This document shows positions 5,933 to 24,184 of a stretch of 64,000 nucleotides of DNA, piece after piece. Under the pieces are notes generated by a model. That model saw nothing but the letters and a program-made list of their open reading frames with translations. It had not been told where the DNA came from and did not search any database. A program made the translations under genes and the position numbers. Position 1 is the stretch's first letter; each line of letters opens with the position of its first letter. This DNA is from Picosynechococcus sp. PCC 7117 (GTDB lineage: Bacteria; Cyanobacteriota; Cyanobacteriia; Cyanobacteriales; MRBY01), in the NCBI RefSeq assembly GCF_001693275.1, contig NZ_CP016477.1, positions 2,852,001-2,916,000 of the forward strand. Reading direction: 5' to 3'.

Positions 5933-7120
5933 ATGCCAGCCCCCTTGCCCATCACCATTGAGCCCTTTACTTGGTCTAATCTCGACTTGCAGCAGACCTT
6001 TCAGCTGATTGATCGCTATTTGCCCCTGAATCTTTGCCGTAATCACGAAATTCTACCCCTCACCCTCCAAGATCGCTGTCTCACCCTGGGCATTGTCGAT
6101 CCCCAACGCTCAAGCGTCGCGGCCATCGTCAATAAACTGCTCAGTCGCGGCGGACTGCAACTCAAAGCCCAAAAGCTTGATCTCAAAACCTACCAGCTAA
6201 TTCTGTCTTCTTACCTGAATTACCATCAAAGCAAGCAAAAATCTCCGCCCCAACCCAAAACGTCCCCAGTCCCTGGCCGAAAAAACGCCACCCCACCAAT
6301 CTCAGAACGGGCGACTTTAGTCATGGAAAATGGACCACCACCCATGCCGTCGTCTGTTTCTAATGATGCGGATCAAGACACTGCCGTGTTTTCTGGGGAG
6401 ACAACGGCTCTACAGATGCCGGTGAATAATGAACTGTCCGAATTTTTTCGACATGTGCCAGCGGTGGTGATTCCCAAGGGGCCAGTACAACTGCAAGCGT
6501 CACCGTCTGCTACGGCGAATGATGCAGGGGAATTGCAAATTTCACCGCAATATCTCAACACTCCCCTCGAAGAACTCAACCACTTATCCGCGTCGCAACT
6601 ATACCAAGAACTGTTGGGCCGCATTTTAACGGAGGGCATTGGCCGCCTCTATTTTGAAAACCACGCCCGGGCAGGCCGCATTTTTCTCAGTGAAAGTGGT
6701 TTGATGAAAGGGTCATTGTCCGGTATTCCCCAGGAAACATTCCACGGCATCCTCGATGAATTTAAGCGCCTCGCTCACCTGCCCCCAGGGCCCATCGACC
6801 GACCGAAAAAAGTGGAAATGGAACAATACTATCAGGGTGAGCGAATTTTACTGCGGCTGCGGGTCATGCCGGGACAGTACGGTGAAGAGGGCACCTTGCA
6901 AGTCTTACGGGGTCAAGCACTGGCGTTTTATCAACAGCAGCAGATGGATGAACTTGGACAAGAGGCCATTGAAGCGGCCCAACGTCTAGAGCGGAAATTG
7001 CGCCATATTTATCTGCGGAGCCAAATTAATCCGGCTCCCCTTAATGCTTTGGATGAACTGTATGGTTTTTGCGATCGCCTCCGAGAACAACTTGATAATC
7101 TGAACAAGCCCCACCAATAA
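5933..7120 (+). CDS. PilB/GspE-like protein lacking the ATPase domain
   Basis: The 395-residue protein opens with an MshEN/T2SSE N-terminal-type domain (about 10-95; pattern Leu-Pro-Leu then LGIVDPQRSS). A proline- and serine-rich linker (about 100-215) follows. The C-terminal domain (about 230-370) resembles the second N-domain of PilB: LLGRILTEGIGRLYFE in place of the xSDIHxE motif, then a region of the type preceding the ATPase core. No Walker A, Asp box, Walker B or tetracysteine is present, so it cannot be a pilus motor. It may bind nucleotide signals such as c-di-GMP (known for some MshEN domains) or dock to the pilus base; both are inferences. The start is MPAP at 5933; an upstream TTG is possible. 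Confidence 0.7.
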   Translation: MPAPLPITIEPFTWSNLDLQQTFQLIDRYLPLNLCRNHEILPLTLQDRCLTLGIVDPQRSSVAAIVNKLLSRGGLQLKAQKLDLKTYQLILSSYLNYHQSKQKSPPQPKTSPVPGRKNATPPISERATLVMENGPPPMPSSVSNDADQDTAVFSGETTALQMPVNNELSEFFRHVPAVVIPKGPVQLQASPSATANDAGELQISPQYLNTPLEELNHLSASQLYQELLGRILTEGIGRLYFENHARAGRIFLSESGLMKGSLSGIPQETFHGILDEFKRLAHLPPGPIDRPKKVEMEQYYQGERILLRLRVMPGQYGEEGTLQVLRGQALAFYQQQQMDELGQEAIEAAQRLERKLRHIYLRSQINPAPLNALDELYGFCDRLREQLDNLNKPHQ

Positions 7121-7126
7121 CGATCT

Positions 7127-7810
7127 TCAATTACGGATTTGTTGACGATACCATTGACGGAGAATCTCTGGATCAATGCCGAGATGATAACCGAGGAGCA
7201 TTTTTTGGTTAATCCAAGTGGTGCGCCACAGACCCAGTCGCTGCCATCTGCGAGCTGAAGTTTGTACAGGTTGGCTTGTCAGGCGAATCTTGCCCCGTTT
7301 TCTCAGCCGTTGCATTAGCTCATAGTCTTCCATAATGGGAATTTCGGCATAACCCCCCAGGGCTTCAAAATCCTGACGCCGCAAAAAAATGGCCTGGTCA
7401 CCGTAGGGCAAAGCCAAAAGTTGCGATCGCCATTGGACTAACTTTTCTAAAGCACGAAATCGCCACCGAGAATCGGCAATTCCTAAAGGAAAGGCTCCAG
7501 CCACCACCTGGGAATCCGCCAAGGTCTCTGTCACAAGGGCAGCAAAGTCCTGGGGTAATTGGGTATCGCCATGGAGAAACAGAAAAATGTCTCCCTGGGC
7601 GATCGCCGCCCCTCGATTCATTTGTTGGCCGCGCCCCCCAGTGGTTTGACAAAGGGTCACCGGAAACTGACGCACTAGATCACAAGTCGGATCCTGACTG
7701 CCCCCATCCACAACAATAATTTCTAAAGGAGTAGGAACTTGGAGCAAGGATTGTAAACAAGGGACAATACCGGCTGCCTCATTTAAAACAGGCATAATCA
7801 CTGAAATCAT
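7127..7810 (-). CDS. Family 2 glycosyltransferase (arsenosugar-cluster type, TIGR04283-like)
   Basis: Small GT-A glycosyltransferase of 227 residues: ISVIMPVLNEAAGI at the N-terminus, IIVVDGGSQD for nucleotide-sugar binding, and FLHGDTQLP in place of the DxD region. The PYGDQAIFLRR acceptor-site segment and the LGYHLGID tail are also present. These match the TIGR04283 group. No membrane anchor is evident. It starts five bases after the stop of the PP2C gene on the same strand, so the two are probably co-transcribed, although no functional link is known. Sugar donor and acceptor cannot be read from the sequence. Confidence 0.85.
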   Translation of the reverse strand: MISVIMPVLNEAAGIVPCLQSLLQVPTPLEIIVVDGGSQDPTCDLVRQFPVTLCQTTGGRGQQMNRGAAIAQGDIFLFLHGDTQLPQDFAALVTETLADSQVVAGAFPLGIADSRWRFRALEKLVQWRSQLLALPYGDQAIFLRRQDFEALGGYAEIPIMEDYELMQRLRKRGKIRLTSQPVQTSARRWQRLGLWRTTWINQKMLLGYHLGIDPEILRQWYRQQIRN

Positions 7811-7815
7811 GATTT

Positions 7816-9804
7816 CTAAAAACTTGAGGCCCCAATATTAGGACGCACCCGTAACCGCACAAGCACCGCCGTAATGTTGTCATGACCATTGCGTTCATTA
7901 GCCAGGGCAATTAAGCGATGCACCCCTTCATCTAAATTGGCCCGGGCACTCAGGAGGGGGAGGAGCATTTCTTCCCAGGTCGTTTCAATTAAGTCATTGT
8001 CCGATAAGCCATCGGAACAGAGCAAAAACAGACTATCTTCGTTCACCTGGAAAAAATTAATATCCGGCTCCACAAAACTATTTTCCCGGGGGCCAATGGC
8101 CTGGGTCAGTTGGTAGGCATCGGGCCTCCCATAGGCAATCTCTGGGGTGACGCCCCGATGTAATTCCCGCTGACCCACCTCATGGTCAACGGTGAGTTGT
8201 TCGAGATTTCCTTTGCGGCTCACACGATAGATGCGACTGTCTCCCACATGGGCGATCGCCACCTGATTGTCTTGAACCAACATCAAAACTAAGGTCGTGC
8301 CCATGCGCCCGCTCCCAGAACGGGAATTTTTCAAGTTGATATTGTAAACCGCCTCATTGGTCTCCCAAATGGCCTGGCGGATCACGGCCTCATCCGGTAA
8401 CTTGTCCTGCCAATGCTCCTGGAAAAAAGCCTGAATCGTTTCCACAGAAAGGGCACTGGCCACTTCCCCCGCCGCATGGCCGCCCATACCATCACAGACC
8501 ACATAGAAGCCGCGCCCTTGAATTTGTCTCCCCAGGAGATTTTCCTGCTTTTCGATGCGGGTACGCATACCAAAATAGTCCTCGTTGTGATCCCGCTCTT
8601 GACCAATATCCGTGCAGCCTGCATCGTCTAAACTCACCAAATTCATCGGTAAGACTACCGTTGAGGCTTCCTCTTCCTCTGGGAAAGCCAAGGGTTCAAA
8701 GTCCCCCGAAGCAATGCTCCCTCCAGAATGTTCAATCTGGGGTGAGTCCTCGGCTTCTGATTCAGGATTAGCCGTTGCTGTTTCTCCGTCCGGGGTTTCT
8801 GCGAGATCTTCTGGGCCTAAATCAGCCGACAACAAAACATCATCCAGGGTGGTTAAATCCTCTGGCTGTAATTCGATGGCTTCTAACTCTCCCTCCACTT
8901 CCCCATAAAAATCATCGGTATCTTCTGGGGCGAGGGCACGGAGGGCTTTTTTTAGGCGGGAGACCGTATCCAAACCACCAATTTGGGCCGTTTCAGTCAG
9001 CTCATAGAGGGGTTGCCACGCTGGTTGGGTAGATAGGTGAAACAAATCTTGCCATAGTTGAGGCAGTCGCTGCAGTGCCGGGAGATGGTCTGGATCATCC
9101 TGGAGGAGTTGTCGCACCACGAGGCTTTGGTCTTCGTCGAGGTATAAATTTGTTGGTTCAAGGATAGTTTGGCAACATTGGAGGGGCACCAATTCTCGCC
9201 ATAGCTGCACCATCTGAAAACACCATTGCAGCAGTTGTTCGTAGAGGGGGGTTTGTACTTGGCAGTAGGTTTTTAAGGGCGTGATGGGCTGTGGGCGTTG
9301 CTCAAACAGCAGCACTTGATATTCTGGCTGACGCCAAGCTTCCAGGAGTTTTGGCACCGCAGAAAAATCATCTTGCAGGCTGAGATACTGACGGGCGATC
9401 GCCGGAATTTCTTTATCTTGCCAGAGGTCGGGATCAGCGAGCTGGGCGGGATCGGTTATTTCTAACTCTTGGAGGGCAGTTTCTAAAATTGTTGGGGTTT
9501 CTGGGGTTGTATCGATCACCGCGAGCCAAGGAAATGTTTCGGCCCGTACCGTTGGGCGATCGCCCAGGCGATAACGACCAGCTTCATCAAGGGTTTCTCG
9601 TGCTTGGCAAGATGCCGCTTCACCGTCCAGGATCAAGGCTGTGAGAGGCCGACTGACCCACCCTTGGCAAGATTCACATTGCTCTTGCTGTAACCGTACG
9701 GGCGTTTCACAGTGGGGACAGGGCCTCGTCAGAGAGCTTCCACAATACTGACAGAAACGATTTTCTGGCGGGTTTTCTTGGGTACATTGGGGACAAACAA
9801 CCAT
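7816..9804 (-). CDS. Double zinc-ribbon PP2C-type serine/threonine phosphatase
   Basis: A 662-residue signalling phosphatase. The N-terminus carries four CxxC knuckles (CPQC, CQYC, CPHC, CESC) forming two zinc ribbons. About 340 residues of acidic, poorly conserved sequence follow. From about residue 400 comes a complete PPM/PP2C domain: DIGQERDHNEDYFG, VCDGMGGHAAGEVAS, GTTLVL, AHVGDSRIYR, LCSDGLSDN and HDNITAVLV, which supply the aspartates for two metal ions. It should remove phosphate from Ser/Thr, counteracting Hanks-type kinases such as the one at 38.2 kb. The start is the ATG at 9804; a GTG six bases earlier is an alternative with better-spaced AAGG. Confidence 0.92.
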   Translation of the reverse strand: MVVCPQCTQENPPENRFCQYCGSSLTRPCPHCETPVRLQQEQCESCQGWVSRPLTALILDGEAASCQARETLDEAGRYRLGDRPTVRAETFPWLAVIDTTPETPTILETALQELEITDPAQLADPDLWQDKEIPAIARQYLSLQDDFSAVPKLLEAWRQPEYQVLLFEQRPQPITPLKTYCQVQTPLYEQLLQWCFQMVQLWRELVPLQCCQTILEPTNLYLDEDQSLVVRQLLQDDPDHLPALQRLPQLWQDLFHLSTQPAWQPLYELTETAQIGGLDTVSRLKKALRALAPEDTDDFYGEVEGELEAIELQPEDLTTLDDVLLSADLGPEDLAETPDGETATANPESEAEDSPQIEHSGGSIASGDFEPLAFPEEEEASTVVLPMNLVSLDDAGCTDIGQERDHNEDYFGMRTRIEKQENLLGRQIQGRGFYVVCDGMGGHAAGEVASALSVETIQAFFQEHWQDKLPDEAVIRQAIWETNEAVYNINLKNSRSGSGRMGTTLVLMLVQDNQVAIAHVGDSRIYRVSRKGNLEQLTVDHEVGQRELHRGVTPEIAYGRPDAYQLTQAIGPRENSFVEPDINFFQVNEDSLFLLCSDGLSDNDLIETTWEEMLLPLLSARANLDEGVHRLIALANERNGHDNITAVLVRLRVRPNIGASSF

Positions 9805-9953
9805 GGTCACAGGGGCCTTCTGGATGGGGGGGACCCGCGAAGCTTAACCTAAGCTTGTGGGGGAGAAACCTAAATTTGCAAACAGTCTGGGTGTTTTAGG
9901 AACTTTTGAGCAGCGACGGGCCATGGTTGGCTTTAACGTTATAGAAACAACAT

Positions 9954-9996
9954 TGGGGAGTAGCCTTTGCCCGCAAGCACAACTGACTCCCCAGCG
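9954..9996 (-). terminator. Possible hairpin terminator after infC
   Basis: Inverted repeat GGGGAGT / ACTCCCC with a long loop, about 40 bases past the infC stop on its strand. The following minus-strand sequence is T-rich but lacks a clean U-run, so the assignment is weak. Confidence 0.3.
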
Positions 9997-10036
9997 ATAA
10001 ATAGCTACATTTTCATGTTGGCCGCCTCAATCGCGC

Positions 10037-10573
10037 CTAGGTAGATTTTTTCGGGGCGAGAATCATCATCATGTTACGCCCTTCTCGTTTGGGTCGCTGT
10101 TGAATTTCACCGACTTCTTCGAGGTCTTTGGCCATGCGATCTAGCAGTTTTTGGGCGAGGTTGGAGTGTTGGATCTCCCGGCCCCGGAAGGTGATCGTTG
10201 CTTTGACTTTGTCGCCTGATTTGAGAAAGCGCTGGGCACTGTTTACCCGGACTTGGTAGTCATGTTCCTCAATTTTGTAACGCATTTTGACCTCTTTGAG
10301 ATCCGCATTGTGCTGTTTCTTTTTGGCTTCTCGGGCGCGTTTTTCCTGCTCGAATTTGTACTTCCCGTAGTCCATAATCCGGCATACTGGCGGCTTGGCG
10401 GTTTCGCTGACGAGGACAAGATCGAGGTCTTCTTCTTCGGCGATCGCCAGGGCCTCGGCGGGGGTCATGATGCCAAGTTGTTCCCCGTCTCCACTGATGA
10501 CTCTGATATTTGGAAAACGAATTCTTTCGTTAATTTTCGGGAGGTCACGTTTTACGCGTCTTTTATCTTTCAC
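10037..10573 (-). CDS. infC: Translation initiation factor IF-3
   Basis: IF-3 binds the 30S subunit, checks start-codon pairing and prevents 50S joining. The 178-residue sequence is full length: [13 protein letters not shown] and [24 protein letters not shown] in the N-domain, then [15 protein letters not shown], a basic linker, and the C-domain with [10 protein letters not shown] and RGREIQH. The only plausible start is GTG at 10573; a stop codon lies two codons upstream and no ATG follows before the conserved part. Rare start codons at infC are a known autoregulation device in bacteria. No rpmI or rplT follows, in contrast to the usual bacterial operon. Confidence 0.95.
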
Positions 10574-10742
10574 AGGCTATGCGTTGAATGTTGTTACGAT
10601 TTGGTAGGTAGGTTTATTACAGTCAATAAAAAATTGAGAACTATGCCCATTTTACTCATTGGCGGACTTTTCGTTACGTCCTGGGGCAGATTTTAGGGAC
10701 AATTTGTGATGATTTTTCAAGCGAGGATGCTCAATTTAAGTT

Positions 10743-11690
10743 ATGGCGATCGCCCAACACCCTAGGGGAATAAATGCTGCAATGGCGCTTCAACCTTGGT
10801 CACAACGGATCGGGTCACAACGGTGCTGGATTTGGCGGGGCTGGCAGATTCGTTACAGTTTTTGGCGCACGGTTCCGGAAAACAGGGGGCGATCACCCCT
10901 TGTCCTCCTCCATGGATTTGGGGCGGCCCTGGAGCATTGGCGTCATTTAATGCCCTTGCTGGCCCAGGATCGCGATGTGTATGCTTTGGATTTATTAGGG
11001 TTTGGGGGTTCGCGGAAAGGCAGCGCAGAGTTTGGCGTCCCCCTCTGGACAGCGCAACTGAGCGACTTTTTAAACCTTGTGGTGCGGCGTCCGGTAATTT
11101 TGTTGGGCAATTCCCTTGGTTCTTTGGTCTGTGCCAACCTGGGCCAAGATCCGAAAAATCAGGTCGAGGCGATCGCCCTGATGAGTGTACCGGATGTCGC
11201 CCAACGCCAAGCGATGCTCCCAAAACCTCTGCGCCCGATTGTCAATGGTTTGGAGCGCAGTGCCATGCAACCCTGGCTCCTGAAACTCATCTTTCGGGTG
11301 GCGCGCCGTCCCTTTGTCCTGAAAAATTGGCTGAAATTAGCCTATCCTTCCTGGCCAAACATTGATGCCGAACTGTTAGCAATTGTGCAGGCCCCGACCC
11401 TGGATCAAGATGCTGCTCAAGCATTTGTTGCCCTGAGTCGCCGCGTTGGTCAGCCAGGTTTTGCGCCGCCCATGGCTGAGGTTTTTGCGAAAATGCCTTG
11501 TCCGATATTGCTGCTCTGGGGTGAACAGGATCGCTTTGTCCCCGTGGCGATCGCCCCCCAACTTGCCGCCGTTAATCCCCGGATCACTCTAAAAATTTTG
11601 CCCAGCCTTGGCCACTGCCCCCACGACGAAGCCCCGGCCCTCATCTATGAATTATTTTCCCAATGGCTAGAAGGTGCCAGCGAGCTATAG
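10743..11690 (+). CDS. Alpha/beta-fold hydrolase
   Basis: A 315-residue alpha/beta hydrolase. VLLHGFGAALEHWRHLMPLL supplies the oxyanion HG motif, LLGNSLGSLVC the nucleophile elbow Ser, LLWGEQDRFVP the acid, and LGHCPHDEAP the histidine. DLLGFGGS follows the first crossover. There is no signal peptide, so it acts in the cytoplasm or at the inner membrane. Cyanobacteria carry several such proteins, some linked to esters of lipids or chlorophyll, but the substrate cannot be deduced. The first ATG is taken; MALQPW at residue 15 is an alternative. It diverges from infC. Confidence 0.88.
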   Translation: MAIAQHPRGINAAMALQPWSQRIGSQRCWIWRGWQIRYSFWRTVPENRGRSPLVLLHGFGAALEHWRHLMPLLAQDRDVYALDLLGFGGSRKGSAEFGVPLWTAQLSDFLNLVVRRPVILLGNSLGSLVCANLGQDPKNQVEAIALMSVPDVAQRQAMLPKPLRPIVNGLERSAMQPWLLKLIFRVARRPFVLKNWLKLAYPSWPNIDAELLAIVQAPTLDQDAAQAFVALSRRVGQPGFAPPMAEVFAKMPCPILLLWGEQDRFVPVAIAPQLAAVNPRITLKILPSLGHCPHDEAPALIYELFSQWLEGASEL

Positions 11691-11740
11691 TAATATATCC
11701 CCTTGGTTTTAGTACGTAGCGCCGCCCCAATCCCCAGACC

Positions 11741-12262
11741 ATGATGAAACACACCCTCTCAGTTCTTGTTGAAGACGAAGCCGGAGTCCTCACCCGCATT
11801 GCCGGACTCTTTGCCCGTCGTGGTTTTAACATCGAAAGCCTCGCCGTTGGCCCCGCCGAAAAAGAGGGTATTTCCCGGATTACCATGGTTGTTCCCTGCG
11901 ACGAAAAAGAAATTGAACAGGTTTCTGCCCAACTCGACAAGCTCATCCACGTGCGGGAAGTGGACGATGTCACCGCCAAACCCTGTGTGGAACGGGAACT
12001 GATGTTGGTCAAGGTCAATGCCGATGCGAGCCAACGCTCCGAAGTGATGCAATTGGTACAGGTTTTCCGGGCGCGGATCGTCGATATTTCTGACAGAACC
12101 GTGACGGTGCAGGTGGTGGGTGACCCCGGCAAAATGGTCGCCATCCTTCAAATGCTCGAAAAATTCGGCATCATCGAAGTGGCGCGGACTGGAAAATTAG
12201 CCCTCGTCCGGGAATCTGGTGTAAACACAGAATATTTAAAATCTGCCGGTAGAAAGGCCTAA
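11741..12262 (+). CDS. ilvH: Acetolactate synthase small (regulatory) subunit
   Basis: Regulatory subunit of acetohydroxyacid synthase, the first common enzyme of branched-chain amino-acid synthesis. The 173-residue protein has an N-terminal ACT domain ([21 protein letters not shown], with [12 protein letters not shown]) that binds valine for feedback control. The C-terminal domain has the VGDPGKM and [10 protein letters not shown] segments typical of IlvH/IlvN. Length is standard. Tandem ATGs at 11741 and 11744 are both possible. The catalytic subunit gene ilvB is not adjacent, as is usual in cyanobacteria. Confidence 0.95.
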
Positions 12263-20074: not shown

Positions 20075-20689
20075 CTAGCAACCTCTTTTAAGGGCTCGAT
20101 CAACTTGGTGATGGAGTGTTGCAAGATCCAAAGAATTATCAAGCACCACATCAGCCCGCTGGATTTTTTCGGCGAGGGGCATCTGGCTGGCGATCCGCGC
20201 TTGGGCCTGGGCAATGCTTAACTGGTTACGCTGCTGGAGCCTCGCCAACTGCTGCTCAGAAGTACAGGCAACCACCCAAATTTCCGTAACAAAATCCGTT
20301 AACTGCGCCTCAAACAGCAGTGGGATCGCGCAAATCACCGTGGCCTGTGTCTCCTGAATGGTTGCTAAGGCTTCACGGAATCGCTGGCGCACGTAGGGAT
20401 GAATCTGGGCTTCGAGCCACAGTTTTTCGTCGGGATCGTTAAAAACAATGTCCCCTAAAGCTTGGCGATTGAGGGAACCATCGGCGTTTTGTACTCCCGC
20501 CCCGTAGCGGGTAAAAATTTGCGTCAATATTGCCGAGGGCGGGGCGATCGCCTCACGGGCATAAACATCGGCATCAAGAATGGGGAGTTGGTAACGTTGG
20601 GCCAGGTAAGTCGTTACGGTACTTTTTCCCGTTGCTATTCCCCCTGTCAGACCGATGATTCTTGGTTTTGTCACTTTATGGTGCGACAT
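20075..20689 (-). CDS. coaE: Dephospho-CoA kinase
   Basis: Phosphorylates the 3'-hydroxyl of dephospho-CoA, the last step of coenzyme A synthesis. The 204-residue protein has the P-loop GLTGGIATGKST (13-24), the DADVYAREAI substrate segment, and the lid region with RQRFREAL. Length is normal. The N-terminus overlaps the 3' end of the 99-residue gene upstream by 14 bases, which is unusual for a housekeeping gene. A decayed copy of the same 5' coding region lies at 22.04-22.17 kb in the same orientation, so this intact copy may owe its place to a duplication or insertion event. Confidence 0.95.
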   Translation of the reverse strand: MSHHKVTKPRIIGLTGGIATGKSTVTTYLAQRYQLPILDADVYAREAIAPPSAILTQIFTRYGAGVQNADGSLNRQALGDIVFNDPDEKLWLEAQIHPYVRQRFREALATIQETQATVICAIPLLFEAQLTDFVTEIWVVACTSEQQLARLQQRNQLSIAQAQARIASQMPLAEKIQRADVVLDNSLDLATLHHQVDRALKRGC

Positions 20690-20975
20690 GACGTTTCACT
20701 AACAGTGGAATCCCGCAGTCATGCCAAAATTCAGGGCTTATCCCGCCGCTAGACATGCCGCCATGCATAAATCTTTCGACGGTGAAATGTTCTCTATGAT
20801 TGATGGGGTGACCTGTCGCTACTTCGTATTCCTTCTTAAGGATGCTTTTGAGTTGTTCGGGTGTGTCTGGCATATCAACGTTATCCAGTCTTTCCTTCAA
20901 TTCATGCCAAAGATATGGATCACCCCGCAATCCCCATTGTTGGGGTTCGTCCTTGAATATTTCAGATATTTTCAT
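20676..20975 (-). CDS. Hypothetical protein of the foreign cassette island (99 aa)
   Basis: A 99-residue soluble protein starting MKISEIFKDEPQQWGLRGDPYLW and ending with an FMHGGMSSGGISPEFWHDCG segment followed by GIPLLVKR. Proteins with QWGLRGDPYLW and HGGMSSG occur in scattered bacteria as small orphan genes, from memory; no function is known. It is free of the HIP1 octamer and has weaker codon resemblance to its neighbours, like the 253-residue gene upstream of it. A degraded attC-like site lies just before its start. Its 3' end runs 14 bases into coaE, so any terminal recombination site of its own has been lost. The ribosome site is poor. Confidence 0.6.
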   Translation of the reverse strand: MKISEIFKDEPQQWGLRGDPYLWHELKERLDNVDMPDTPEQLKSILKKEYEVATGHPINHREHFTVERFMHGGMSSGGISPEFWHDCGIPLLVKRHVAP

Positions 20976-21045
20976 TTTCTGTCAGGACTATAAAGTCAAA
21001 GGTAACCAGCGTGAGTCAGCGCGTCTGGTTTACCGCATTGTTAGC
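20976..21045 (-). repeat. Degraded integron attC-like recombination site
   Basis: On the minus strand, GCTAACAATGCGG (the last coding codons of the 253-residue gene) starts the site. Two complementary arms follow, GGTAAACCAGACG and CGCTGGTTACC, which pair with two unpaired A residues on one arm only, as extrahelical bases do in attC. The far core is decayed (TTTATAG in place of a GTTAG-type core). The gene ending NNAVNQTR by running into the site is typical of cassette ORFs. Assignment rests on pattern; integrase and attI are not in the window. Confidence 0.5.
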
Positions 21046-21777
21046 AGCCTTTTTGATCTTAACTTTTTCCCAAGACCACTGGGGCCATCCCTGCGACTTA
21101 TCATATTTTTCTTTCAGTATGCCGGTTTTTTCCAGCAATTCAAAATTATCCTTGTTTTTTGCGAGGTTATTGACCTGGTCCTGGGAAACCTCGAACTCAA
21201 CGAGCTCCGATTCAATTATTGCTGCATGACGCGTTTCTACCTCAAACACTACTGTATACTTTCCCGCCTCGAATAGAGGATTGTTTTTCCTGAAATCTAT
21301 GCGATCAATTGTTGTCTTAGCCTTAAGGAAATCATCAAGATTCATTTGACCAGTCCTCGTTTGGTGGTTTAAATGTTCCTGATATGCACGATTTACCTTT
21401 TCGGCTTTTTCAATTAAGTCAGGTGATTGCATTCGAATCAGTGCAACCGTCATTTCATCCCTCGTTACATTCAAGCCTATCGCGTCATCAGTGCCATCTC
21501 TATCGACTATGAACTGCCATTCGAACAAAGTCTCGCGGCCTGATTCATGCGTGACTCTTGAAGTGATTCGTGTAATTAGCACGGAACTATTCTTTGCGTA
21601 GAATGCTAATTTGGGATTGAAGATTGGGCCTAGTTCAGTGAACCCAATTTCTGCCCAGTTATCTGATAGAACTTCAAGACGTGGCTTTTCTAGTATCTTG
21701 ATAATCACCGAAATTAGGTGCGGAATCCAGGCCAATGCTCCGAGTATTGCAGGAATTGACGTGAGCCATGCCATCAT
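21016..21777 (-). CDS. Hypothetical membrane-anchored protein of the cassette island (253 aa)
   Basis: A 253-residue protein. One N-terminal hydrophobic segment (about 3-27, with SIPAILGALAWIPHLISVI) is followed by a soluble part rich in beta-strands and charged helices (LEVLSDNWAEIGFTELGPIF, then a long Lys/Glu-rich end). The last residues, NNAVNQTR, are encoded by the attC-like site. Base composition is more A/T-rich than neighbours, and no HIP1 octamer occurs between 20.55 and 22.03 kb. GGAG lies upstream of tandem ATGs. I do not recognise the family. By context it is a captured gene cassette. Confidence 0.6.
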   Translation of the reverse strand: MMAWLTSIPAILGALAWIPHLISVIIKILEKPRLEVLSDNWAEIGFTELGPIFNPKLAFYAKNSSVLITRITSRVTHESGRETLFEWQFIVDRDGTDDAIGLNVTRDEMTVALIRMQSPDLIEKAEKVNRAYQEHLNHQTRTGQMNLDDFLKAKTTIDRIDFRKNNPLFEAGKYTVVFEVETRHAAIIESELVEFEVSQDQVNNLAKNKDNFELLEKTGILKEKYDKSQGWPQWSWEKVKIKKAANNAVNQTR

Positions 21778-21799
21778 TTTATTCTCCGTTTGTTGTCCT

Positions 21800-21837
21800 G
21801 GTGGTTGCTAACTAGGAGTTACACCGCACCTGCAGCA
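21800..21837 (-). repeat. Right half of a second attC/attI-like site
   Basis: On the minus strand, GGTGCGGTGTAACTCC then TAGTTAGCAACC immediately precede the 253-residue gene. The order (CG-rich arm, TAAC, then GTTAG core) matches the 3' half of a standard attC (59-base element) and places the core crossover just upstream of the cassette. No matching left half was found. Confidence 0.4.
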
Positions 21838-22034
21838 TCACAACCCAAATCTACCAGAATATTACCGCAGACTTTGGCTACAGAATAGCGGCCAAGAGGC
21901 AAATACCATAATCACAGATAGCTTGCAGATCATTTAACTCAAGTCGCAGTTGCTTACCAATGAGCACCGCTGCCTGTTCCAGCAATTCATCCAAGAAAAA
22001 ACCGATATGCTGATTGTTTTTCATTTTGGCGATT
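21838..22034. other. Unassigned stretch inside the island
   Basis: About 200 bases with no confident gene. A minus-strand frame reads through it (ELLEQAAVLIGKQLRLEL, then a stop at 21878) but begins inside the coaE relic in a different frame. It may be the tail of a destroyed gene joined by deletion. No promoter or repeat beyond the half site is visible. Confidence 0.4.
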
Positions 22035-22172
22035 CTTGGCGATCGCCTTACGGACATAAATATCGGCATCAAAAATGGAGAGCTGATCGCGTTGGGTCAA
22101 GTAAGTCTTGCTATACTTTTTCCCGTCGCGATGCCCCCCATCAAACCGATGATTCCTGGCTGCGTCACCGTT
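22035..22172 (-). pseudogene. coaE: Decayed 5' fragment of a second coaE
   Basis: On the minus strand the sequence reads VTQPGIIGLMGGIATGKS, then breaks frame at TACTTGA, and resumes in another frame as LTQRDQLSIFDADIYVRKAIA. This aligns along its whole length with intact CoaE (VTKPRIIGLTGGIATGKS, then a segment ending DADVYAREAIA). It stops after about 46 codons, at the HIP1 octamer corresponding to the one in coaE. It is a truncated, frameshifted relic in the same orientation as coaE, about 1.5 kb away. Confidence 0.85.
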
Positions 22173-22183
22173 CGCGAATCATC

Positions 22184-22426
22184 CTATAGCTTGGCATGAC
22201 TGCCATCACAAAACGGCGCATCTTGGGTGTGTTTACAAAGACACAGCGTCACTTTTTTCTTCTCTTCTAGGGTGAACTTTTGGGGCTTAAATTCTGTACC
22301 CTTGTGACTGCCATCGCAAAAGGGTTGATCCGCAGATTTACCGCAGGCACACCAGAAATAATCGCCGGCCTCAAGTTCCAGCGTCATGGGCTTTTTCGCC
22401 GCAATCGTTGGTTTAGCCATATTCAT
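22184..22426 (-). CDS. CDGSH iron-sulfur domain protein
   Basis: An 80-residue protein with two CDGSH-type [2Fe-2S] sites: CACG...FCDGSH and CLCK...FCDGSH, each offering three Cys and one His. Bacterial dual-CDGSH proteins of this size are small soluble electron-transfer or Fe-S storage proteins; partners are unknown. Start choices are the ATG at 22426 with AGAGG close upstream, or MAKPT at 22420. It ends just short of the coaE relic. It shares its strand and short spacing with the pirin gene upstream and might be co-transcribed with it. Confidence 0.88.
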   Translation of the reverse strand: MNMAKPTIAAKKPMTLELEAGDYFWCACGKSADQPFCDGSHKGTEFKPQKFTLEEKKKVTLCLCKHTQDAPFCDGSHAKL

Positions 22427-23166: not shown

Positions 23167-23253
23167 AAAAACCTCCGAGGCGTTTTTTAGCGGGTTTAGG
23201 TGATTGCTTCTATTGTAGATTGCCGCCAAATAAAAGACAATAAGCTATTTTAT

Positions 23254-23266
23254 ATACAGAATGTAT
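23254..23266. promoter_or_regulatory. LysR-type operator palindrome
   Basis: The 13-base palindrome ATACA-GAA-TGTAT lies between the divergent pirin and LysR genes, 22 bases before the LysR start. It fits the T-N11-A rule for LysR-type regulators and is a good candidate operator for self-regulation and pirin control. Confidence 0.5.
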
Positions 23267-23287
23267 CTTAAAAAGAAACAATAGGCC

Positions 23288-24184
23288 ATGGATAAGTTAG
23301 CCAGTTTGTATGCCTTTACCCAGGTGGTGGAAGCGGGAGGATTTGCGGCGGCGGCACGACAGATGAATGTCGGGCGATCGGCGGTGAATAAGCTAGTGAT
23401 TGCCCTCGAAAATCACCTCCAAGTTCAACTCCTCCACCGCAGTACCCGCAAGGTGACACCGACCCCCACGGGCCTCGCCTTCTATGAAAAATGCGTCCAG
23501 ATTTTGGCGGATCTAGAGGAGGCAGAGCTATCAGCTTCGCAACTACACGGGGAACCCAAAGGCTTGTTACGGGTAAATGCGCCGATGACCTTTGGCCGGA
23601 TGCAGGTGGCCCCCCTCGTGGCAAAATTTATGGCCCAATATCCCCAGGTGCAAATCCAACTCACCCTAGAGGATCGGTTTGTGGAGGCGATCGCCGAAGG
23701 CTATGACCTCGTGATTCGGATCGCTGAACCCGTCGAATCGGCCAGTCTCATTAGTCATCCCCTCTGTGAGACAAAACTAAGCCTCTGTGCGGCCCCCAGC
23801 TACCTAGAACGCCATGGTATCCCCCAAAGTCCTAGGGATTTAGTTCATCACAACTGTTTGCGCTACGGCCCCACGGGCAATACCTGGCATTTGGTCGGCC
23901 CCCAAGGGGAAGTTTCTGTTAACGTGTCCGGCTCTTTTTGTGCGAACAATGGTGAAGCATTGGCGATCGCCGCGGCGGCGGGCTTAGGCATTGCCCAGTT
24001 ACCCCAATTTATTCTCGATGCAGCCCCCTGGACAGAACAACTCACGGTGGTCTTGCCTGAATACAATCACCGCACCCTCAGTACCTATGCCCTCTATCCG
24101 ATCAATCGCCATCTTTCCACCAAGGTAAAACTCCTGTGCGAATTTCTCCAGCAACACCTTGCTGCTGCTGATCCTTCAGGCTAA
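23288..24184 (+). CDS. LysR-family transcriptional regulator
   Basis: A 298-residue regulator. The N-terminal winged helix (about 1-60) contains FTQVVEAGGFAAAARQMNVG and the LLHRSTRKVTPT wing. The effector domain (about 90-295) carries VRIAEP, CAAPSYLERHG and the AIAAAAGLGIAQLPQF pattern of LysR substrate-binding domains. Divergent placement and a shared palindromic operator link it to the pirin gene. Proteobacterial relatives of this subgroup often control pirin or quinone and flavonoid detoxification genes. The inducer is unknown. Confidence 0.93.
   Translation: MDKLASLYAFTQVVEAGGFAAAARQMNVGRSAVNKLVIALENHLQVQLLHRSTRKVTPTPTGLAFYEKCVQILADLEEAELSASQLHGEPKGLLRVNAPMTFGRMQVAPLVAKFMAQYPQVQIQLTLEDRFVEAIAEGYDLVIRIAEPVESASLISHPLCETKLSLCAAPSYLERHGIPQSPRDLVHHNCLRYGPTGNTWHLVGPQGEVSVNVSGSFCANNGEALAIAAAAGLGIAQLPQFILDAAPWTEQLTVVLPEYNHRTLSTYALYPINRHLSTKVKLLCEFLQQHLAAADPSG

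Follow-up and report, generated by a model that had tools for sequence, protein, structure and literature searches.

A probable integron gene cassette in a swappable slot beside coaE of Picosynechococcus sp. PCC 7117

Introduction

What lies between an intact coaE gene and a decayed copy of its own 5′ end, and how it came to be there, is the question raised by a locus of Picosynechococcus sp. PCC 7117. It was studied within a stretch of 64,000 nucleotides (the window), which corresponds to G000:C1:2852001-2916000 of a genome of 3.43 Mb in 6 contigs. A first-pass annotation had proposed that foreign cassettes were captured beside coaE, the 5′ end of which was duplicated and then decayed. The gene in question, encoding dephospho-CoA kinase, is an essential one, and studies of integrons have mostly dealt with arrays situated beside their integrase. 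What we describe here are single cassettes in fixed slots by housekeeping genes, which change between species and whose enzyme is absent from two of the three genomes concerned. Cyanobacterial integrons are already known (PMC2426708), and a cyanobacterial attC model has been used previously (PMC8352920).

Results and Discussion

Organization of the locus

On the minus strand a CDGSH gene comes first, followed by the coaE relic, a decayed antitoxin gene and some 65 bp that lead up to the slot, in which the 253-aa gene and its attC lie; the 99-aa gene and then coaE complete the series (Table 1). As annotated in the first pass, coaE is intact, and PF01121 has no further match in the genome; the upstream copy is indeed a frameshifted and truncated relic in the same orientation, and the 99-aa reading frame does overlap coaE. 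A direct repeat of the gene end is thereby found on both borders of the island, and likewise at loci L015 and L016. Codons 1-5 of the present coaE (MSHHK) are supplied by the island, and only from codon 6, GTG, onwards does the gene match the relic.

Table 1. Features of the coaE locus; positions refer to the window.
Feature	Position	Strand	Evidence or remark
coaE (dephospho-CoA kinase), intact	20075..20689	-	Pfam CoaE E 7.7e-61
Duplicated coaE 5′ segment, ~codons 6-48	20543..20674	-	HIP1 decamer at its end, 20543-20552
99-aa gene	20676..20975	-	Same place in G000, G002 and G004; overlaps coaE by 14 bp
ACCATAA at 99-aa stop codon (possible R″ remnant)	20676..20682	-	Complements own start TTATGGT (as in G002/G004)
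Cassette attC	20988..21046	-	R″ TGCTAAC 21046-21040; R′ core TTTATAG 20994-20988; covariance model 18.6 bits, fold, alignment
Integron gene cassette (very probable), 818 bp	20994..21811	-	TTAGCA start to attC crossover base; three-species alignment, length, end-pairing
253-aa cassette gene	21016..21777	-	Probable N-terminal membrane helix
Left core site GTTAGCA	21806..21812	-	Crossover after G at 21812 (21812/21811); conserved left flank stops here in 3/3 species
Left half-site (attC-like 3′ half GCGGTGT-8-GTTAG)	21812..21875	-	77% copy on plasmid contig
Decayed Xre-type antitoxin gene	21878..22024	-	Intact paralogue G000:C1:1303063, 102 aa, weak HTH matches only
coaE 5′ relic	22038..22168	-	84% identity to 20543-20674; loss of a single base; HIP1 decamer 22038-22047 at its end

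The stretch between half-site and relic that had been left unassigned is now accounted for by the antitoxin relic together with some 65-75 bp that are repeated on a plasmid contig. The plasmid copy of the left half-site (G000:C6:61130-61201, L099/L098) is joined to a DUF4386 gene at CTAG^TT, and no attC was found after it. The gap in HIP1 octamers noted earlier at about 20.55-22.03 kb is real (the bounding octamers start at 20544 and 22039), but it is not unusual, as 5 of the 118 gaps in the window reach at least 1480 bp; the absence of HIP1 was therefore discarded as a sign of foreign DNA.

The cassette, its boundaries and its attC site

A hand-made attC scanner turned out to be too loose, and we used instead a covariance model made from 18 sites beside cyanobacterial integrases, of which one came from the G004 integron and none from the coaE locus. 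With this model the attC-like palindrome of the first-pass annotation scores 18.6 bits, corresponding to E values of 0.0023 in the 2.5-kb region, 0.09 in 100 kb and 3.2 in the whole genome. No other place in the window scores as high, and in the genome only a solitary attC at C1:1885590 (35.4 bits) surpasses it. It is the single attC of the locus, and its L″/L′ hairpin, in which some bases bulge out, is present (z = -2.1 for the DNA fold). The corresponding sites of two congeners, G002 and G004, score 11.0 and 3.7 bits, the latter being nearly gone, and sites adjacent to integrases range from 17 to 66 bits. The 253-aa gene runs into the palindrome, as had been noted, its last 10 codons and stop lying inside the attC, and the former 'half attC-like site' marks the start of the cassette, with the crossover following its terminal G.

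The alignment of the three species delimits the cassette on both sides: the left flank is common up to CTAGTTAG, the right flank is common from the TTATGG core onwards, and everything in between differs. The left boundary is CTAG^TT in all three, and the right R′ core reads GTTATGG in G002 and G004 versus TTTATAG in G000, so that in the latter the G to T change has removed the base that is cut by the integrase. A further property concerns the two ends of each cassette. A cassette that enters from a circle has its start and its end in one attC site, and its own ends are hence complementary. Indeed, the cassette start pairs with its own R″ over 7 of 7 bases in G000 (GTTAGCA/TGCTAAC) and over 8 of 8 in G002 (GTTAGCTT/AAGCTAAC), and in G004 over five bases plus CCC past one extra base (GTTAGACCC/GGG-CTAAC), while cross-pairs between the ends of different species' cassettes extend over only 5 or 6 bases. 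At random places of the window, pairings of 7 and 8 bases arise in 0.8% and 0.3% of the trials, and four other solitary cassettes of G000 and G004, taken as positive controls, pair their own ends over 7-10 bases. Since start and end would once have formed one attC in a circle, this pairing is the mark of insertion by an integron integrase, and the three cassettes of the coaE slot appear to have entered in this way, the sign being weaker in G004.

The identity of the cassette is thus well supported, and we consider it very probable that one integron gene cassette, spanning 20994-21811, is lodged in the slot of a coaE-anchored island. It has the G^TTRRRY start, the own-end complementarity and the gene running into attC that are typical of such cassettes, with an end that resembles attC in its R″, L″, L′ and bulged bases, and differs from them in being single, in a genome without integrase, with a mutated right R′ core and a weak attC. 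In contrast to a complete integron there is no integrase gene beside it. In having an attC without a neighbouring integrase it resembles the CALIN or orphan attC of IntegronFinder, whose version 2.0 by default defines a CALIN by at least two attC sites without integrase (PMC9024848); the coaE locus, unlike a CALIN, has one site, below that default, and a slot that is common to three species and holds different cassettes.

Integrases in the genus and the order

Among 391 genomes of the order, 35 have a match above cut-off to the integron integrase family TIGR02249; one of them is G004 (470 bits), where the gene is located elsewhere in the genome than the coaE locus. The search for an intI elsewhere that the first-pass annotation had suggested thus yields one in a congener, and none over cut-off in G000 or G002 (best matches 1.5e-9 and 3.7e-9). 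In G000, Pfam phage-integrase domains are matched no closer to the island than about 58 kb. As in other cyanobacterial chromosomal integrons, the G004 chromosome carries intI, an attI-like site and attC, and so do other genomes of the order, whereas the coaE cassette lies far from any integrase and is tied to a duplicated gene end. As G000 is without a recognisable integrase and the G of its right crossover is mutated, its cassette can probably no longer move. On one plasmid contig of G000, two tyrosine recombinases (C6:151727-152230 and 248446-248949) obtain the same scores and may belong to a repeated element.

The same slot in congeners and its cargo

A CoaE search over six genomes of the genus detects a second match of 45 codons, 2.6-2.9 kb upstream of coaE, only in G002 and G004. 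Both share the layout of G000, in which the coaE relic and the decayed Xre-type antitoxin gene precede the slot and the 99-aa gene and coaE follow it, but the slot holds different cassettes, of 2191 and 1848 bp respectively, compared with 818 bp in G000. The cassette of G002 encodes a C5-cytosine methylase and a Bpu10I-type endonuclease (Pfam 1.1e-67 and 8.3e-30), forming a type II restriction-modification pair, and that of G004 an AAA_15 ATPase of the OLD/GajA/AriA kind, an OLD/GajA-like nuclease. As judged from these families, the cargo is of the anti-virus or defence type in two of the three species. The coaE-side slot is very probably a swappable capture site left by an integron.

The 253-aa and 99-aa genes are not conserved together with the palindrome across the cyanobacteria searched. 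The 253-aa protein has no relatives in 291 cyanobacterial genomes, genome contigs, viral contigs and plasmids; among the genomes searched the 99-aa gene occurs only in G000, G002 and G004, with a short fragment in G024, although relatives with 31-44% identity are found on plasmids of other phyla. Neither protein has a family in Pfam, NCBIfam or PHROGs, and the 99-aa protein has none in PADLOC; a scan of genome contigs with its alignment gave no match, and its structure model (73.5) found nothing in the PDB with an E below 0.86. The structure model of the 253-aa protein (pLDDT 39.5) is too low for use, and its match to a PADLOC homing endonuclease model, at 0.003 only, was not trusted. Because of its company and its position a defence role may be guessed for the 253-aa protein, a guess to which we give even chances. 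The 99-aa gene is probably the remnant of a second cassette whose attC is gone, and the ACCATAA at its stop codon, which complements its own start, may be what is left of the R″ box. The capture proposed in the first pass therefore stands, given three cassettes in one G^TT slot, the pairing of their ends and the integrase of a congener; its plural does not, as there is one cassette and a probable attC-less remnant.

Gene-end repeats and the HIP1 decamer

The coaE duplication ends, in G000 and G002, at a HIP1 decamer, GGCGATCGCC. In the window 87 of the 119 HIP1 octamers are decamers (73%), and a similar share, 71%, is reported for Synechococcus PCC 7002 (PMC4390886); as there are 1.4 decamers per kb, the chance that any one breakpoint lies inside a decamer is about 1.4%. 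PMC4390886, citing Akiyama 1998, mentions evidence for a part of HIP1 in site-specific recombination in PCC 7002, and events that use homology on one side and join illegitimately on the other are known from naturally transformable bacteria (PMC3240628). The position of the breakpoint suggests that the duplication of coaE arose by recombination at the decamer.

Repeats of this kind are not confined to coaE. Three more integron or cassette loci are flanked by direct repeats of the end of a neighbouring gene, in each case the 3′ end: Uma2 in G000 and G004 (about 43 bp), argH in G004 (about 150 bp, with four further copies around the integron) and dihydroorotase in G004 (136 bp, 72%). Three of the five argH copies start at a HIP1 decamer, and a truncated integrase relic is joined there to an argH relic; among the four duplications, that of Uma2 does not end at HIP1. 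No gene-end repeats were seen at a fifth locus, L088. As a general cyanobacterial trait such repeats were rejected, none being present at most integrase loci of other cyanobacteria; homology between the coaE left flank and the attI-like sites of G004 could be shown for no more than the last dozen bases.

Gene-end direct repeats on both sides of an island, here as at argH, Uma2 and dihydroorotase, are also what would be left as attL and attR by a site-specific element, such as a phage satellite or an ICE-like island, which replaces the 5′ end of its target gene and carries the cassette as a passenger. This possibility, which is compatible with the cassette itself, appears unlikely to us, as no site-specific recombinase, relaxase or phage gene is found among the reading frames of the islands of G000, G002 and G004 (1.5-2.9 kb), and the length of the repeats (about 43 to 170 bp) and the gene end involved vary from locus to locus. 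The coaE island shares with the islands that target the ends of tRNA genes, dusA, trmE and similar genes the repeat on both sides and the reconstituted gene; it differs from them in having no recombinase, in involving a 5′ end and in a repeat that ends at a HIP1 decamer.

Movement of the island between species

Between G000 and G004 the dS is 0.19 for the 99-aa gene and 0.43 for coaE codons 6-47, whereas in the surroundings it ranges from 0.78 to saturation (remainder of coaE 1.33, pirin gene 1.29, CDGSH gene saturated). In the 99-aa gene and the 5′ part of coaE all three species are about equidistant, with 90-93% identity, versus a backbone in which G002 is near to G000 (mean 90.7%) and G004 far from it (mean 79.5%, maximum 89.3%; 30 windows). 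The identity between species drops at the HIP1 decamer that ends the coaE duplication. Strong conservation of the protein does not explain the low divergence of the 99-aa gene, as about 11% of its residues differ between species versus 8% of its bases. These results indicate that the present 5′ end of coaE travels with the island, and that the island, this end included, has moved between species. A duplication of the 5′ end followed by decay, as first proposed, is thus too simple, even though a duplication and a decayed relic are there. Natural transformation followed by recombination through coaE would be the simplest reading of how the island spreads.

That the slot was instead inherited vertically from a longer ancestral array, with differential loss of cassettes and no later exchange, we regard as decidedly improbable. 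The antitoxin relic and the 99-aa gene do look like leftovers of an array, and in a tree of the coaE 5′ copies with outgroups, based on about 130 bp and with support of 0.66-0.88 at the relevant nodes, the relics are somewhat nearer to one another than to the intact copies; however, neither the low dS of this segment against about 1.3 in the flanking genes nor the near equidistance of the three species fits such a history. Least probable of all, and by our estimate highly so, is a turnover of defence islands in which homologous recombination alone swaps genes between conserved flanks and the palindrome is a coincidence: the defence-type cargo of G002 and G004, the clear movement of the island by recombination and the low attC scores at all three junctions would agree with it, but it does not predict the G^TT boundaries in three species, the own-end pairing, the textbook solitary cassettes in the same genomes or the integrase of G004.

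We favour the combination of integron cassette and mobile flanks, in which an integrase like that of G004 would have carried out the exchanges at the slot. A cell with an active integrase would insert a cassette, and the island would then spread by homologous recombination, for example through natural transformation, with coaE as its anchor; wherever the integrase is absent or the core is mutated, the cassette would become fixed. Since the relic, the cassette gene, the 99-aa gene and coaE all have one common orientation, the former coaE promoter may drive the captured gene, and coaE itself would now depend for its start on island codons, MSHHK, overlapping the 99-aa gene.

More tentatively, and with less than even confidence, we suggest that the genus has a set of small gene-end islands (coaE at the 5′ end; argH, Uma2 and dihydroorotase at the 3′ end), each combining a duplicated, replacing gene end with an integron slot. 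They would be built at HIP1 decamers, spread by homologous recombination and swap defence genes beside housekeeping genes, perhaps expressed from the promoters of the latter, without a resident integrase. The coaE slot lends itself to studying how cassettes are maintained, expressed and passed on where an integrase is missing, and the part of HIP1 in recombination, an old question, becomes directly testable in a naturally transformable laboratory cyanobacterium.

Further cassette loci of the genus

The solitary attC at C1:1885590 (L085, G000:C1:1878000-1893000, also L065; attC at 7591-7678) belongs to a solitary cassette of textbook form, which carries a Schlafen/AlbA_2 gene (375 aa) and sits in an attI-like site, without integrase, and the 3′-end relic of the Uma2 neighbour lies on the opposite side of the cassette. 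In G004 the same site (L086, C1:498000-513000, 6495-7818) has a flank of 93% identity up to the crossover G and then a different cassette, encoding a 283-aa membrane-like protein; the Uma2-side site is a second slot with swapped cassettes.

The argH integron of G004 (L030, C1:522000-541000) comprises an intact intI, attC and several attI-like copies. Also present are two intI relics, both truncated, and the argH 3′ end in five copies, of which some are joined at HIP1. At another locus of G004 (L087, C1:2140000-2155000, 6531-11754) an attI-like site, a solitary attC and an intI fragment accompany a GajA/GajB-like pair (Gabija-type), with direct repeats of the dihydroorotase 3′ end on both flanks.

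In the window, at 23234-23683, in and beside the LysR gene, the identity of G000 with G004 (81-85%) exceeds that with G002 (76-81%). This runs counter to the regional trend and may reflect a local exchange. A further congener, G005, has 21 attC matches over many small contigs (C2, C20, C51, C73, C164, C165, C167, C185 and C197), corresponding to a large, badly assembled array.
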